A stretch of DNA of 34,964 nucleotides, taken from positions 1-34,964 of the forward strand of contig JAAYPI010000125.1 of the NCBI GenBank assembly GCA_012519885.1, in the 5' to 3' direction. Source of the DNA: Bacteroidales bacterium (GTDB lineage: Bacteria; Bacteroidota; Bacteroidia; Bacteroidales; Paludibacteraceae). Made by a program: the position numbers and the translations under genes. The notes under the pieces are model-generated. The model was not told where the DNA came from. It saw only the letters and a program-made list of their open reading frames with translations, and made no database searches. Below are positions 4,145-29,962 of this stretch, piece by piece. Numbering within the stretch: the stretch's first letter is position 1; every line of letters starts with the position of its first letter.

Positions 4145-4867
4145 TTATTGATTATATCGTGCAATTTCTTGCAACGAAATTTTTCCTTCGTAAATGGCTT
4201 TCCCAAAAATAACCGCTGGAATGCCTGCCTCATCTAAGGCATAAATATCTGACATAGCACTTACTCCGCCACTAGCAATTAAAAATAACTCCGGGAATTG
4301 CATGATAATCTCTTTGTATAAATCAACAGACGTGCCTTGTAACATACCATCTTTGGCGATATCGGTACAAATTACTTTATTTATTCCTTTCGTGGTATAT
4401 GACTCCAAAAAAGGAAATAAGTCGTACTCCGTGCTTTCTACCCAACCACTAACCGCTATCTTTTTGTCGTGCACATCTGCACCCAATATAATTTTTTCGT
4501 TACCAAATTTTTGAATCCACGACTCAAACACGGTTGGATTTTTAACAGCAATACTTCCACCAGTTATCATCGAAGCACCATTTTCAAACGCAATATTCAA
4601 ATCCTCGTCTGTTTTTAGTCCACCACCAAAATCTATTACCAAATTGGTATGTGTGGCAATGGTATACAACACCTTATGATTGACAATATGTTGAGCTTTA
4701 GCTCCATCTAAATCTACCAAGTGCAAACGAGTAATACCACTATCTTGAAACATTTTTGCTACTTCGAGTGGATTTTCGTTGTACACCGTTTTCTTGGCAT
4801 AATCACCTTGTGATAAACGAACACATTTACCATCGATAATATCTATTGCTGGAATCAATTGAATCAT
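4145..4867 (-). CDS. hisA: ProFAR isomerase (phosphoribosylformimino-AICAR isomerase)
   Basis: A 240-residue barrel that begins [20 protein letters not shown] with the conserved Asp8 of PAIDI, a second catalytic Asp in LGADVHD (about residue 130), and phosphate-binding FGGGL and IASGGVS loops. It performs the Amadori rearrangement of ProFAR to PRFAR, the HisF/HisH substrate. It begins 7 bp after the hisH stop and ends 15 bp before hisF, ending in TAA. Length is normal for HisA. Confidence 0.95.
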
Positions 4868-4874
4868 ATATATA

Positions 4875-5468
4875 TTACAAGGCTAAAAAGTTTTTCAATA
4901 TTTGCTCACCTACATCGCCACTTTTTTCGGGGTGAAATTGAGTAGCATAAAAATTATTTTTATTCAATGCCGCACTAAAAGGTTGAATATAATCAGTTGT
5001 TGCAATAGTATGTTCGCACATTGGCACATAAAAACTATGCACAAAATACACAAACTGTTCATTCAGTTGCTCCGAAAACAAATTTGATTTTACGTCATAC
5101 AACTGGTTCCATCCCATGTGTGGAATTTTTTGTGTTTGTTGTGTCGGAACAAATAATTTGACAGGCACATCAAAAATACCCAAACAATCGACATTACCCT
5201 CCTCCGAACTTTTACACATCAACTGCATGCCCAAGCAAATGCCCAAAACAGGTTGCGTAAGCGATGTAATCAGTTCGTCCATCTTGCGTTCTTTCAAAAA
5301 ACGCATCGTGGTAGTAGCTTCTCCCACACCCGGAAAAACAACCTTATCAGAAGCTCGTATTACAGCCTCATCAGCAGTTACAACAGGCTCTACGCCTAAG
5401 CGTCGTAAAGCATGCACCACCGAATAGATATTTCCTGCATTGTATTTTATAACGACTACTTTTTGCAT
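4875..5468 (-). CDS. hisH: Imidazole glycerol phosphate synthase glutaminase subunit HisH
   Basis: A class I glutamine amidotransferase of 197 residues starting [20 protein letters not shown]. Nucleophile Cys lies in [10 protein letters not shown], and the His/Glu pair in FHPEKSG near the C-terminus. It hydrolyses glutamine and channels ammonia to HisF. The frame is open further upstream to 5549, but that extension overlaps purU and lacks homology-like sequence. The ATG at 5468 lies one base after the purU TAG stop (5472-5470), which implies translational coupling. It ends in TAA, showing that TAA is a genuine stop in this genome. Confidence 0.95.
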
Positions 5469-13311: not shown

Positions 13312-13887
13312 TTAAAAACGACTTTCAATTACTTTCCAATCAATTACATCCCAAAGAGCAGCTACGTGGTCGGGGCGTCTGTTTTGGAAATCAATGTAAT
13401 AAGCATGCTCCCACACATCAAAAGTAAGTAATGGTTTTTGATTTTTGGTTAATGGTGTACCAGCATTGCTTTCTTTGGTAATTTCTAATGTACCAGCAGC
13501 GTTTACCACTAGCCATGCCCAACCCGAACCAAATACACTAACTGCAGCAGCCGAAAATTCTTTTTTGAAATTATCGAAAGAACCAAAGGCGGCATCAATA
13601 GCAGCAGCTAAAGCTCCTTCTGGTTTTGATTTTGGGCTTGGTGCAAATTGGTCAAAATAAAATTCGTGGTTAAAAATTTGAGCAGCATTGTTGAAAATTG
13701 GACCTTCTGATTCTTTAATAATAGAAATCAAATCCATGTTTTCAAACTTCGTCCCTGTTTTTAGGTTGTTTAGATTATTTACATAAGCTTGTAAGTGTTT
13801 TCCATGATGAAATTCAAAAGTTTTAGGACTTACCACTGGGTTTAATGTAGTAGGGTCATACGGCAATTTTTTTAGTTCAAATGTCAT
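13312..13887 (-). CDS. sodB: Superoxide dismutase (Fe/Mn family, cytoplasmic)
   Basis: A 191-residue SOD beginning MTFELKKLPYDPTTLNPVVS, without a signal peptide. Metal ligands are His27 (FHHGKHLQAYVNN), the His of FNHEFYF, and Asp/His in DVWEHAYY. AAQIFNHEFYF and FGSGWAWL are of the iron or cambialistic type found in anaerobic Bacteroidota. It dismutates superoxide to peroxide and oxygen in the cytoplasm. A second, exported SOD is at 29291-29962. A 12-bp palindrome lies just upstream (see 13909-13927), and yggS follows within 14 bp. Confidence 0.95.
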   Translation of the reverse strand: MTFELKKLPYDPTTLNPVVSPKTFEFHHGKHLQAYVNNLNNLKTGTKFENMDLISIIKESEGPIFNNAAQIFNHEFYFDQFAPSPKSKPEGALAAAIDAAFGSFDNFKKEFSAAAVSVFGSGWAWLVVNAAGTLEITKESNAGTPLTKNQKPLLTFDVWEHAYYIDFQNRRPDHVAALWDVIDWKVIESRF

Positions 13888-22662: not shown

Positions 22663-23571
22663 TTAGCTCCATAGTTTTGTTGGATATACTCCCTTATGAA
22701 TCAATTCATTTAGTTTCATTAATACCGTTGCCTTATCATCAGCATACGTTACTCCAAACCATTTAGACGGTGTATCTAACACTTTTACGGTAGCTATATT
22801 ATTTTTAATAAGGTAATCAACCATACTTGGAATGTAAAATTCAGCTTTTAAACTTTTTTCATTTTCTTTTAAAAATTCTTTGAAATAAGCTTCTGAAAAC
22901 TCAAAATAATCAGGTGTAAATCCCCACATATTCATGGATACAGGCGTATTGGGATCTAATACGACTAGTTCTTGTCCAAGGTCATTCAAATTAACAATTC
23001 TGCCATTTTGTGCTTCAATTTTGGTATGCTCAACTACCGACACCAAATTATTTTGGTTATCTGTTTGACACACACCACGTGATACTGACCCACTTTCGGA
23101 CAAGGTATTTTTAACAGGAAATCCCACCATGCAGTATTGAGCCGATTTTCCTTCCATTTGTTGTAAGGCTTTTCCTAATACTTCAAATGATTCTTTACCA
23201 TAAAAATCATCTCCATTAATAACAGCAAAAGGTTCTTTTACCACATCTTTGCCCATCAAAATAGCATGATTGGTTCCCCATGGTTTTACTCGTTCGGGAT
23301 GAACACTAAAACCTTCAGGCAATTTATCTACTTCTTGAAAAACAACCTCTACAGGAATTTTGTTCTCAAACTTTGAAATAACGATTTTTCTAAAATCAGC
23401 CTCAAAGGCTTTGCGAATAACAAATACCACTTTGCCAAAACCAGCTCTAATGGCATCATAAATAGAATAATCAATAATTGTTTCTCCGCTTGGACCTAAG
23501 CCATCCATTTGCTTTAATCCGCCATATCGGCTCCCCATGCCCGCTGCCATTACATACAATGTAGGTTTCAT
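22663..23571 (-). CDS. Sugar-phosphate nucleotidyltransferase
   Basis: A 302-residue enzyme with the N-terminal MAAGMGSRYGGLKQMDGLGP nucleotide-binding loop, FAVINGDDFYG (metal-binding Asp, about residue 117) and PVSMNMWGFTP. These define the NTP_transferase family that makes NDP-sugars from sugar-1-phosphate and an NTP. This Bacteroidota subgroup is not tied to a single sugar. It lies between a lipoprotein gene and the pseudo-peptidase gene, with its own TACTTTTG element upstream. It may supply surface-glycan synthesis with the nearby glycosyltransferase and flippase. Confidence 0.87.
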   Translation of the reverse strand: MKPTLYVMAAGMGSRYGGLKQMDGLGPSGETIIDYSIYDAIRAGFGKVVFVIRKAFEADFRKIVISKFENKIPVEVVFQEVDKLPEGFSVHPERVKPWGTNHAILMGKDVVKEPFAVINGDDFYGKESFEVLGKALQQMEGKSAQYCMVGFPVKNTLSESGSVSRGVCQTDNQNNLVSVVEHTKIEAQNGRIVNLNDLGQELVVLDPNTPVSMNMWGFTPDYFEFSEAYFKEFLKENEKSLKAEFYIPSMVDYLIKNNIATVKVLDTPSKWFGVTYADDKATVLMKLNELIHKGVYPTKLWS

Positions 23572-23652: not shown

Positions 23653-25692
23653 TTACATGTTTTTATTTAAAAAAGATATAATTCGTTCAAAACTATGCAG
23701 ATATAACGTCTGTGTTACATTATCATAATAGATTGATGGATATAATTGCATATCAAATTGTTGATTTGCCTTGATCAAAGCATCTACTAACAACCAAGTG
23801 TGTTGTATATGCACATCCGTATTATCAACATTGTGCATGAGTAATAATTTTCCACGATAATTAGCCAAAGAGCTTAGCTCTGCTTGTTGGTAAGCCATAA
23901 AATTCTTTTGAGGCAAACCCATCCAACCTTCACTCAAAACTGACAAATAATGAGCATAATCGGTAATTGGATTCAGGGCAATAGCAACTTTTACAGTAGT
24001 ATCTTTTTGCAATAACTCAATAGCTGTATGGGCATATGCACCAACCCCCATCAGGGCAATGCTATTTTTATTAGTAAATGGGTATTGAAAAAGTGTTTCT
24101 AGATACGAATGCCATACTGCTAGATGTTCCTGCTCATTACCAGCATATCTATACATGGTAGGACTAAAAGAACAGACTACATATCCCTGATTTGCAATAT
24201 CTTGTGCATACGAAATATCCCACTGATTAAGGGTTTCTTGTAGTACAACAACAACTGGATAGACCTTTCGTTCATCAAAATCAGAAGGTTTTACCATCCA
24301 CCCCATTGGCAATAGTTCTTTAGTAGGAAACACACGTTTCATCATCTTGTCTGCCATCGCTGCATTATCAAATACACGACCTAGTTTTTTCATTTTAACA
24401 TCATACAATGTATAGTATGGAGGAGTATTCACATTACTATATTGATGTACAAAATGTGAAAACTGTGGTGAAAAATAAGCGGTATGTACGCCTTCTTCAT
24501 CAAACAAGGTTCGTATTTTCCCTTGTAAATTGACAGCAAATATTCCTTTGTTTAACAATCCTTTAGTGAATGATTGATAAAAAAATTGTTTCCCTATTGT
24601 GTCATATCCATACACATCAGTAATAGCCATCTTACCATTTGTAAGTTGACGTATAAGTATACCATTGTTTGCATAATGGTAAAGCTGTGTATATCCTGTT
24701 TTTTCACTTAATAAAGTAAAAGAATTATCGGGTAAAAACTGTAAAAATCGTGCTGCCAAAGGAGAAAAAGCTGGAGAGGCGTTTTCTTGGTTTGCCATTC
24801 TAGCTACACCTGACAATGGATTATAAAAAATTGTTTTTCGTTCATTCTGCTCTCTATTTAAAACGTTAATTGCCATTAATTCTGGATTAGACGACCATGC
24901 TACTGCTGTAATATAATTATCTCCTTCATCAGGTAATTTCATCTCAAGATGCTTACGAAATTGTATGGTATAAACAAATAATCTGGCTTTTGTTATTGGG
25001 AAACCTGGTTTTGAATACCTTTGCTGAAATAACTGAGGATACGTAGTGGTAGTTTCCGTATGAGTGAACAACGGCACATCCGTCTCATCGTATTGAACAA
25101 AGGCTATCATCTTACTATCAGGAGACCATACAATGGAGCTGTTTATCCCAAAACCTTGTTGGTATAACTTATCTGGCAGACCATTTGATAAGGTATTAAT
25201 CAATCCATTTTCTGTAACACGCAATTCGGTTCCAAATTCCAAACGTTTGATATATACATCTCCATTACGTACAAAAGCAATCATTTTTCCATTAGGCGAA
25301 TACAACGGTATTTGTTGTTTTCCATATTCAGAAAGAGGTTCAAGCTTATTGCGTTGCCTATCTACTAAAAAATAATTCAATGGTTCAACAGAAGAGCTAC
25401 GTTCTGTTTTTTCATACACCAACATCGTTGCTTGATCTGGACTAAGAATAAATCCGCCAATAGATGATAATTGAGAACGTCCTTCTATTGAAAACACAAG
25501 CGTTTCAACATCCGTTTTAGCATCCTTACGTACAATACTTTTGCCATCTGCAGACACATACACATAACTACCATCCGAGAAAAAAGAAAAGACAGGTGCC
25601 GATTGCATCAATAATCGCATTTCGGTACTTTTAAAACCAAAAACACAAAGTGAAAACAAAAGAAAAAACAATAAAAAACTAGATTTTTTCAT
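23653..25692 (-). CDS. DPP IV-like S9 family protein without a catalytic triad (probable pseudoenzyme)
   Basis: A 679-residue protein with a signal peptide (MKKSSFLLFFLLFSLCVFGF), a DPP IV-type beta-propeller (SPNGKMIAFVRNGDVYIKRL, about 132-151; NSSIVWSPDSKMIAFVQYDE, about 184-203), and a C-terminal alpha/beta-hydrolase fold (about 450-679). Key residues are replaced. GxSxGG reads GVGAYA (549-554), so Gly551 is at the nucleophile position. The Asp loop reads HNVDNTDVH (620-628), with Asn at the aligned position. The catalytic-His segment after YP (651-652) appears shortened and lacks that His. The double-Glu motif (DWVYEEE in DPP IV) reads DKLYQQG (174-180). Likely an exported pseudo-peptidase with a binding role. 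It follows the MFS gene by 27 bp, so both are probably one transcript. Alignments were by eye. Confidence 0.8.
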   Translation of the reverse strand: MKKSSFLLFFLLFSLCVFGFKSTEMRLLMQSAPVFSFFSDGSYVYVSADGKSIVRKDAKTDVETLVFSIEGRSQLSSIGGFILSPDQATMLVYEKTERSSSVEPLNYFLVDRQRNKLEPLSEYGKQQIPLYSPNGKMIAFVRNGDVYIKRLEFGTELRVTENGLINTLSNGLPDKLYQQGFGINSSIVWSPDSKMIAFVQYDETDVPLFTHTETTTTYPQLFQQRYSKPGFPITKARLFVYTIQFRKHLEMKLPDEGDNYITAVAWSSNPELMAINVLNREQNERKTIFYNPLSGVARMANQENASPAFSPLAARFLQFLPDNSFTLLSEKTGYTQLYHYANNGILIRQLTNGKMAITDVYGYDTIGKQFFYQSFTKGLLNKGIFAVNLQGKIRTLFDEEGVHTAYFSPQFSHFVHQYSNVNTPPYYTLYDVKMKKLGRVFDNAAMADKMMKRVFPTKELLPMGWMVKPSDFDERKVYPVVVVLQETLNQWDISYAQDIANQGYVVCSFSPTMYRYAGNEQEHLAVWHSYLETLFQYPFTNKNSIALMGVGAYAHTAIELLQKDTTVKVAIALNPITDYAHYLSVLSEGWMGLPQKNFMAYQQAELSSLANYRGKLLLMHNVDNTDVHIQHTWLLVDALIKANQQFDMQLYPSIYYDNVTQTLYLHSFERIISFLNKNM

Positions 25693-25719: not shown

Positions 25720-26913
25720 TTAACGCAATTTGTGTTGGTTATAATATGACAATGCATACCACCTAAACCATACTAATCCAACAAGTAAAACGACAGCTGC
25801 CATTAAATAACTATCTCCATAACTTGCCATACTAGCTACATTTCCTCCAAATAATACACCCAATCCAATACCTAAATCCCACATAATAAAATAAGACGAA
25901 TTGGCAGTACCTCGTTGATTGTGCTGTGCCAAATTAATAAAAAGCAACTGAAACGCAGGTCCTATGATGCCGTATGCCACTCCTAGCATAATTGCTGAAA
26001 TATAAAACCCATACACATTTTTTATTACTACCAATAAAACAAGTCCACTTATTGCTAAAACAAGACCTACTAAAATAATACCAGAAAAATAGCCTTTGTC
26101 AAGCAATTTACCCACCGAAAAACGTGAAAACATAATACCCATAGCAAAGAGAACAAAGAATAAACTTGCCCCCATTTTCAGACCCACCTCAGTAATACCA
26201 TATACAGCTACGTATGTTACAATTAATCCATACGAAAAAGCTACCGTTAGTAATGAGAAAGCGATAGGAGTGCCTTTTAATAAGTAAAAGCGATCGAGCG
26301 AAATTGGTTCTTTTTGAGTTTCTATGTGTTCTACACAGCGAAATTTAATAAAAAGCATAATAGCTAACCCTACCATTCCAACAGCAAATGAAAGCAAAAA
26401 TAAGGCATCATAATTGCCATATAATTCATATAAATGCAAAGAGACCATGGGTCCAATAGCCATTGCCAAACTCATTATAGCACCATAATAACCCACACCT
26501 TCACCACGCCTATGTGTAGGCATCATATCAATAGCCATTGTGCTATTGGCAATAGTAAGTAAGCCAAAAACCAATCCATGCAAAGCTCGTACCCACACAA
26601 AACCGCTTAGCGATTGTACCAATACATAGAAAACAAAAATACTGACAAAAGCAGCATACGATACCAGCAATAATTGTCTACGAGCAAAATTATCAACCAT
26701 ATACCCAGCAAACGGTCGTACTACCAATGCTGTAACAGAATATACAAACAAAGCAAACCCAACACTCGCTTTATCTGCCAATAAATCTTCCTCCAAAAAC
26801 ATCGGTAAAATTGGCATTAACAAATAGAAAGCAAAAAACAACAAAAAACTACCTATCAACAATAGAACAAAACTTTTGCTCCATAATGATTCCTCTGGTT
26901 CACACTTTTGCAT
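25720..26913 (-). CDS. MFS transporter
   Basis: A 397-residue major facilitator protein with about 12 membrane segments. It has the conserved loop 2-3 region VVRPFAGYMVDNFARRQLLL (a D-x-x-x-R-[RK] motif A relative), ALHGLVFGLLTIANSTMAID and PTHRRGEGVGYYG. I chose ATG 26913 (MQKCEPEESLWSKSF) because the TTG/TACCTTTG promoter at 26941-26971 lies inside the longer open frame (to 27015). Substrate is unknown; sequence resembles sugar or drug efflux permeases. The S9-like pseudoenzyme gene follows by 27 bp. Confidence 0.88.
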   Translation of the reverse strand: MQKCEPEESLWSKSFVLLLIGSFLLFFAFYLLMPILPMFLEEDLLADKASVGFALFVYSVTALVVRPFAGYMVDNFARRQLLLVSYAAFVSIFVFYVLVQSLSGFVWVRALHGLVFGLLTIANSTMAIDMMPTHRRGEGVGYYGAIMSLAMAIGPMVSLHLYELYGNYDALFLLSFAVGMVGLAIMLFIKFRCVEHIETQKEPISLDRFYLLKGTPIAFSLLTVAFSYGLIVTYVAVYGITEVGLKMGASLFFVLFAMGIMFSRFSVGKLLDKGYFSGIILVGLVLAISGLVLLVVIKNVYGFYISAIMLGVAYGIIGPAFQLLFINLAQHNQRGTANSSYFIMWDLGIGLGVLFGGNVASMASYGDSYLMAAVVLLVGLVWFRWYALSYYNQHKLR

Positions 26914-26940
26914 ATAATGGATTACTAATTGGATAGAGAG

Positions 26941-26971
26941 CAAAGGTATAAAAGAATTAAACATTGCACAA
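26941..26971 (-). promoter_or_regulatory. Promoter of the MFS / S9-like operon
   Basis: On the minus strand TTG (plus 26969-26971), 20 bp spacing, then TACCTTTG (plus 26941-26948): both boxes of the Bacteroidota primary sigma-factor promoter at proper distance, 28 bp before ATG 26913. Confidence 0.55.
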
Positions 26972-27127
26972 CTTGCTCCCCTTTTATTGTATTGTATGTA
27001 AAGAATAATTAACAAAAATCTGCCCTTTTGTCAGTTTTGTAATGCATAAATAAAGTTTATACAGTAAAAACGAATGTTGGCATACGTTTTGTTATAATAT
27101 TGATGTAATATAAAAAAGAATCAGTAA

Positions 27128-29065
<1,938 letters not shown>

Positions 29066-29120: not shown

Positions 29121-29240
29121 ATATCTACCACCAAAGAAAATAATGAATTGAACAATCCCACAAGCAGCTTTTTCTCTACGATTAATAAGAAACTCTTCTG
29201 TTTATATTCATTGCATATCACTAAAACTTGTTAACTAAAA

Positions 29241-29270
29241 TTGCAAAAGGGCATTTTGGGTTTATATTTG
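29241..29270 (+). promoter_or_regulatory. Promoter of the exported superoxide dismutase gene
   Basis: TTG (29241-29243), 19 bp, TATATTTG (29263-29270): both boxes of the Bacteroidota consensus TTG-N19-TAnnTTTG. It lies 20 bp before ATG 29291 and rules out the ATG at 29228 as the start. Confidence 0.65.
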
Positions 29271-29290
29271 TAAAATTAAACAATAAAAAT

Positions 29291-29962
29291 ATGAAAAAAA
29301 TACTATTCCTTACGAGTGTACTAGTTGTATGGCAACTATCACTTACAGCTCAAAATTTCTATGAATTTAAAGAACTACCCTATTCGTATAGTGCACTAGA
29401 GCCTTATATCGACTCCACCACCATGGAAACGCATTATGCTAAACACCACAAAGGATACTACAACAACTTTGTAAAAGCGATGCAAGAGGGCAATTTTGAC
29501 AATAAACCTCTCGAACAAGTAATACAAAACATTTCCTCTTACAGTGTATTTATTCGTAACAACGGAGGGGGATATTGGAATCATGAGTTTTTCTGGAATT
29601 GTATGTCGCCAAACAAAACACAAGCCAGCAATGCACTCACAAAAGCCATTACAGACAATTTCGGTTCGTTTGAGAATTTCAAAAAAGAATTCTCTTCGGC
29701 AGCATCTACCGTTTTTGGTTCGGGATGGGCATGGCTTATCGTAACAGATAGCGGCAAACTGAAAATTGTAAAAACCGCTAACCAAGACAATCCTTTGATG
29801 GATGTTGTTGCAGATAAAGGAACACCCATCTTAGCCATTGATGTATGGGAGCACGCCTATTATTTGAAACATAAAAACCTACGTGCAGCGTATGTTGAAA
29901 ATTTCTGGCAAGTTATCAATTGGCAATTTGTATCAGAAAAATATGCGGATGCAGTAAAATAG
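29291..29962 (+). CDS. Exported superoxide dismutase (Fe/Mn family)
   Basis: A 223-residue SOD whose first ~21 residues (MKKILFLTSVLVVWQLSLTA, Q) form a signal peptide without a lipobox. The catalytic fold follows: ETHYAKHHKGYYNNF (first metal His), GGGYWNHEFFWNCMSP (second His), FGSGWAWLIV and DVWEHAYYLKHKNLR (Asp and His ligands). All four metal ligands are kept, so it should be active in the periplasm or outside the cell. Superoxide does not cross membranes, so an exported SOD would meet external radicals. It has its own promoter after the dnaK terminator and shares a bidirectional terminator with the opposing operon. It differs from cytoplasmic sodB at 13312. Confidence 0.92.
   Translation: MKKILFLTSVLVVWQLSLTAQNFYEFKELPYSYSALEPYIDSTTMETHYAKHHKGYYNNFVKAMQEGNFDNKPLEQVIQNISSYSVFIRNNGGGYWNHEFFWNCMSPNKTQASNALTKAITDNFGSFENFKKEFSSAASTVFGSGWAWLIVTDSGKLKIVKTANQDNPLMDVVADKGTPILAIDVWEHAYYLKHKNLRAAYVENFWQVINWQFVSEKYADAVK

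Follow-up and report, generated by a model that had tools for sequence, protein, structure and literature searches.

The DNA analysed here, referred to as the window, is a stretch of 34,964 nucleotides from a gut-type, Paludibacteraceae-like member of the Bacteroidales, and it contains a gene whose product has the outline of a bacterial DPP IV (peptidase family S9B) but appears to lack the residues by which such an enzyme works. The locus therefore raises the question of whether the gene is a peptidase gene in decay or encodes a pseudoenzyme held by selection, as a sequence-only reading of the window had proposed, and what such a protein might do. The gene and the parts of its product were placed as follows.

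23653-25692, minus strand: predicted DPP IV (S9B) pseudoenzyme of 679 aa with an N-terminal signal peptide (ORF, Pfam, PDB matches, model)
25636-25692, minus strand: predicted signal peptide, about residues 1-19 (MKKSSFLLFFLLFSLCVFG), read from the sequence, with a helix at residues 2-17 in the model
24343-25575, minus strand: beta-propeller domain, about residues 40-450 (DPPIV_N match, model)
25156-25161, minus strand: former double-Glu motif, now Gln178-Gln179 (alignment)
23656-24327, minus strand: alpha/beta-hydrolase domain, about residues 456-679 (Peptidase_S9 match, model)
24223-24261, minus strand: site of the deleted YSGP loop, where residues 478-490 flank a 6-residue deletion and the oxyanion Tyr is lost (alignment)
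24031-24048, minus strand: dead nucleophile elbow GVGAYA, with Gly551 at the Ser position (alignment)
23809-23835, minus strand: dead acid loop HNVDNTDVH, with Asn624 at the Asp position (alignment)
23719-23751, minus strand: shortened catalytic-His segment, with Tyr656 at the His position (alignment)

The reading frame starts with ATG and is open throughout its 679 codons, whereas about 50 stops would be expected among the same number of random codons of the same base composition. Pfam searches of the protein returned DPPIV_N over residues 85-425 (1.2e-71) and Peptidase_S9 over residues 532-654 (7.3e-10), and the closest solved relatives by sequence were the DPP4 proteins of P. gingivalis and B. 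thetaiotaomicron (E ~8e-84). Modelling with AlphaFold2 on the protein together with 55 relatives gave a confident structure, with a mean pLDDT of 86.5 and a pTM of 0.87, which matched P. gingivalis DPP4 (5olj) with a Z of 37.8 over 661 residues; bacterial DPP4 was the closest solved relative by structure as well. With 5olj and with B. thetaiotaomicron BT_4193 (btDPP4, 7y4f) the protein shares the full-length fold, the domain order and a predicted export signal, in keeping with the earlier claim that signal peptide, propeller and hydrolase fold are all present at full length in an open frame. Assignment to an S9 paralogue such as PTP-A or DPP5 was considered and rejected, since the matches to bacterial DPP IV were far stronger.

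The protein was then aligned to 152 live relatives, 151 of which were readable at the triad positions. Ser, Asp, and His were present in all 151, and at the corresponding positions the window protein carries S551->G, D624->N, and H656->Y, together with E178->Q and E179->Q. The substitutions called from the letters alone thus withstood a proper alignment: the nucleophile elbow does read GVGAYA rather than GxSxGG, Asn624 does occupy the Asp position of HNVDNTDVH, QQ at residues 178-179 does replace the double Glu, and the shortening of the catalytic-His segment is real, appearing as a gap in the PDB alignment. The loss extends further, as the Trp and both Gly of the live elbow (GWSYGG) are also gone, and the 6-residue deletion, near residues 483-484, takes out the whole YSGP loop including the oxyanion Tyr, which we equate with human Tyr547. 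No intact Ser-Asp-His triad was found elsewhere in the protein in these alignments, a possibility that the sequence-only reading had itself raised. The two Glu of the double-Glu motif, which lies on the helix of blade 4, hold the substrate N-terminus, and the roles of the catalytic residues are taken from the same source (PMC5807507). The protein thus has the fold of an active S9B peptidase, but the triad, the double Glu, and the oxyanion-Tyr loop of bacterial DPP IV are all missing. Lacking the triad, it should on its sequence not be classed among active S9B peptidases, and it cannot be expected to hydrolyse peptides. Of the positions conserved in the live relatives, 28 of 38 persist in its propeller versus 21 of 48 in its hydrolase domain; by this alignment the active centre is eroding inside a shell that is kept.

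Examination of related genomes, largely metagenome-assembled, indicated that the losses are not peculiar to one organism. We compared the window genome (G000; 2.28 Mb, completeness 99.16%) with the only other genome of its genus, G002, the two being termed g1 here, and with 16 genomes of a neighbouring genus, g7. An S9 search of G000 returned the window protein as its sole match, with no other S9 family protein. The genes flanking it are the following.

22663-23571, minus strand: GalU-like sugar-phosphate nucleotidyltransferase, downstream on the same strand (Pfam, NCBIfam, synteny)
25720-27015, minus strand: MFS transporter, upstream on the same strand, which adjoins the dead gene in G002 too (Pfam, synteny)
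27158-29065, plus strand: dnaK, a divergent neighbour found beside the dead gene also in G002 and in most g7 genomes (Pfam, synteny)

The copy in G002 (L070) is 54% identical to the window protein and reads QK, Gly, Asn, and Phe at the double-Glu, Ser, Asp, and His positions, and full-length dead copies were found in 14 of the 16 g7 genomes. Of the remaining two, G114 (83% complete) has a fragment beside a conserved neighbour and G130 (81% complete) has none. Across the 18 dead copies compared at the catalytic positions, neither Ser nor His is kept in any and the double Glu is broken in every one, while the Asp of the acid loop survives in some g7 copies that are without Ser and His. The g1 and g7 copies form one clade in two trees (SH-aLRT 97% and 100%). 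Their loci share a gene order, with the GalU-like nucleotidyltransferase directly downstream and dnaK divergent upstream, and with the MFS gene in between in g1; the nucleotidyltransferase was found in 133 of 150 sampled genomes of the family, but g1 and g7 alone have it next to a DPP IV homologue. An artefact of sequencing or assembly in a single metagenome-assembled genome was ruled out, as both the losses and the gene order recur in 16 genomes.

In the g7 members an insertion in the propeller is gone, at a cost of about 35-40 residues, and in two of these members another ~50 residues are missing. In some g7 genomes two divergent dead copies are present (L039 in G095, L040 and L041 in G148, L222 in G608), one beside dnaK and/or the nucleotidyltransferase and the other elsewhere, which indicates that the pseudoenzyme gene was itself duplicated and kept. 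One dead copy (L048 in G022) comes from a third genus, g22. It is a protein of 538 aa on a long branch that is missing about 100 propeller residues and has no neighbours in common with the g1 and g7 loci; it is possibly an independent loss, and a single origin of all dead copies including L048 received a tree support of 76. A single-protein search of genome contigs returned no relative, and the hits of a profile search were for the most part live enzymes, with a single dead copy among them, L135, a g7 copy whose record reads 'Paludibacteraceae bacterium RGIG410', from dairy-cattle colon. When a profile of the dead clade was run against a sample of 295 genomes of the order, the distinct top-scoring sequences that were read, from outside the family, were all live. 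The live DPP IV loci of the family share no neighbours with the dead gene by synteny, and with the tree root arbitrary, the dead gene may be directly orthologous to the live DPP IV of the family or may descend from an old paralogue.

Two further observations concern the surroundings of the gene. The dnaK of the window is interrupted by an in-frame TAA at 27863-27865 on the plus strand (...IIDWLA*EFTREEG...), giving two ORFs with no frameshift. This split gene is the only full-length dnaK of G000, and the dnaK of another genome, G081, is intact; the TAA is probably a base error in the assembly. The window also has two genes for Fe/Mn superoxide dismutase less than 17 kb apart on opposite strands, at 13312-13887 (minus) and 29228-29962 (plus).

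The dN/dS was 0.10-0.12 in pairs of dead copies with dS below 1, as compared to 0.03-0.12 in live pairs. In live pairs the hydrolase domain was more constrained than the propeller, an advantage lost in most dead pairs. The sequence-only reading had suggested looking for a clade with the same lost residues and a dN/dS below 1, and g1 and g7 supply one, at about 0.1 in the pairs with unsaturated dS; nor is the variant missing from all relatives, given G002 and the 14 g7 genomes. Recent decay is argued against by the same losses in these genomes, the single clade, the shared neighbour, and the dN/dS of ~0.1. It is near certain from these comparisons that two related Bacteroidales genera share a clade of DPP IV pseudoenzymes passed on by vertical descent, and we hold with high confidence that the window protein is itself a pseudoenzyme under selection, as had been proposed, on the combined strength of the multi-genome clade, the dN/dS, the gene order, and the full-length fold.

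In kind the protein, with its DPP IV fold, its lost Ser and a frame held by purifying selection, resembles animal DPP6 (DPPX) and DPP10. These inactive relatives of DPP IV have likewise kept the fold without the nucleophile, and they have a non-catalytic role as auxiliary subunits that modulate Kv4 channels (PMC9409431). The model of the window protein matched DPP6 (1xfd) with a Z of 32.9. However, it scored 111-115 bits against DPP6 and DPP10 versus 285 bits against bacterial DPP IV, which places its kinship with the bacterial proteins; its loss is also wider, taking in triad, anchors, and loop, and no Kv4 channel is involved. We infer that the loss arose separately from that of DPP6 and DPP10. 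A 2014 survey described the triad as highly conserved among prolyl oligopeptidases of bacteria (PMC4522959), and our literature search, which lay mostly outside subscription journals, turned up no account of a clade of S9B pseudoenzymes in bacteria.

A second exopeptidase of the same organisms shows a parallel loss. Peptidases of family S46 (DPP7/DPP11 type) have a chymotrypsin-like fold unrelated to that of S9. The S46 protein of G000 (L238, L276; C32:4149-6182) matches positions 1-697 of the 698 in the Peptidase_S46 profile and aligns end to end with PgDPP11 (292 bits to 4xzy). It is thus a full-length homologue, but a dead one: of the PgDPP11 triad, His85 is replaced by Tyr (NHHCG->NYTAI), Asp227 by Asn (GDF->ANF), and Ser655 is lost (GNSGSP->DKMGAP). 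The Asn218-Trp219 pair, which anchors the substrate N-terminus in S46 (PMC6753110), is lost as well (DNW->DKH). A search for S46 proteins gave low-scoring copies precisely in g1 and g7, at 484 bits or less versus 620-835 bits for full-length copies of other genera; among the low-scoring copies that were read, Ser is missing in 16 of 16 and His in all 15 readable at the N-terminus, and some g7 members retain the acid Asp without Ser and His. The dead S46 copies form one clade with 100% support and adjoin pdxB and usually truA, the neighbourhood in G000 being pdxB, a response-regulator gene, and truA. Their dN/dS was 0.09-0.16, at a dS that is largely saturated. The 29 best-scoring S46 genes from other families, found with the dead profile in the 295-genome sample of the order, were all live.

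In the live S46 genes that were read from the family's other genera the triad is intact; one paralogue, L293 (G638), has lost the catalytic His alone (NYH) and retains GNSGSP. A live S46 gene, L289 (G148:C74), is carried by a 3.6 kb contig in one of the g7 genomes and is possibly contamination or a transfer. S46 genes are absent from most other genera of the family, and a lineage not needing the enzyme could thus have lost the gene altogether. Divergent from the g1 pseudo-S46 gene is a small gene (L276:6333-7022) with a 47%-identical homologue beside a live S46 gene in another family (L297, ~4548-5150) and partial matches near several other live S46 genes, which hints weakly that the dead gene may sit at an inherited S46 locus. 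The divergence of the two dead proteins beyond species distance gave a partial r of 0.45 (permutation p 0.04; 10 genomes, one control gene), a co-variation of rate that is suggestive only. The parallel loss in DPP IV and S46 is in effect one evolutionary episode, so that no probability can be attached to the coincidence of the two.

Since two unrelated exopeptidases are dead yet full-length and constrained, the simplest reading is that digestion became dispensable in this lineage and a non-catalytic task did not. The best explanation overall, to which we would give a probability of about 0.5, is that both pseudoenzymes are kept as non-catalytic proteins of the cell envelope. The lineage would have given up periplasmic dipeptide release and kept both proteins for a non-catalytic job, the likeliest being to support the envelope as scaffolds or partner-binding proteins, in the periplasm or at the outer membrane. 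The window protein would be exported by its predicted signal peptide, fold into a propeller and hydrolase shell, and bind a partner through the better-conserved propeller, leaving the active-site cleft free to erode. The analogy is with BT_4193, the DPP4 of B. thetaiotaomicron, for which papers citing the original study report a non-catalytic role in envelope integrity and in becoming established within communities (PMC12071298) and a part in envelope integrity and community fitness (PMC11221189); the same kind of catalysis-independent role is what we propose here. By this analogy a scaffold role in the envelope is plausible, at slightly less than even odds. The continuing change within the dead clade, seen in the propeller shortening of g7, weakens the case for a single conserved binding surface, and none of the gene neighbours of the dead DPP IV points to the envelope.

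The sequence-only reading had entertained a peptide-binding role, by which peptides would be captured, uncut, in the old substrate site. The preserved fold and, in the model, the preserved cleft are consistent with it, and an Arg may remain near the position of the substrate-binding Arg125 (Arg98, in one of two alignments). However, with both Glu and the Tyr loop gone the peptide site itself is dismantled, most of the conserved positions of the hydrolase domain are lost, and the S46 companion has lost its Asn-Trp pair too; with the anchors of the substrate N-terminus missing from both proteins, peptide binding or sensing is improbable. Dead enzymes often act as decoys or regulators, and the shell might bind protease inhibitors such as host serpins, or form inactive dimers with a live peptidase. 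That reading is scarcely as probable: a search of g1 and g7 genomes with the Peptidase_S9 profile showed no live S9 peptidase of the propeller type, only short hydrolase-like ORFs besides the dead copies, so that no live S9 partner is at hand in the genome, and the propeller region deleted in g7 is what we take to be the dimer arm. Contacts between host serpins and S9 proteases of Bacteroides have been predicted (PMC12071298), but serpins react at the active site, and here that site is dismantled.

Slow decay, with both peptidases dispensable and their frames merely unbroken so far, could draw on the internal shortening of several members, on L048 with its ~100 missing residues, and on the constraint of the hydrolase domain relative to the propeller, which is relaxed against that in live pairs. 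It is very unlikely nevertheless, as a dN/dS of ~0.1 largely refutes it, the frame is open and full-length in 16 genomes of two genera, and small genomes have kept S46 and DPP IV alike where most related genera lost S46 outright. Least probable of all is a new catalytic chemistry through other residues of the cleft. A full fold kept under selection would accommodate it, but no replacement Ser or Cys conserved across the dead clade was seen in the hydrolase domain by alignment, and the residues invariant there are mostly structural, the others being His620 and Thr632, both common in live relatives.

Returning to the proposed envelope role, a joint function of the two pseudoenzymes is possible and weakly hinted at by the sequence comparisons. 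That they would form one non-catalytic envelope module, as a complex or in a shared pathway, with a function older than digestion and separable from it, is a stronger claim that we consider unlikely, though less so than peptide binding. If it were true, the lineage discarded catalysis in both proteins and could not discard the proteins themselves.

Work on bacterial DPP4 treats it as an enzyme of the gut that breaks down host hormones, and similarity of sequence is taken as grounds for counting homologues as activity; under such counting the dead clade would be miscounted as DPP4 activity. With catalysis erased twice, in two unrelated dipeptidyl peptidases, and the proteins themselves retained, this natural lineage would amount to a ready-made separation-of-function experiment, in which the conserved and eroded parts point to the non-catalytic surface, and by which the mechanism of the envelope role of BT_4193 would become testable.
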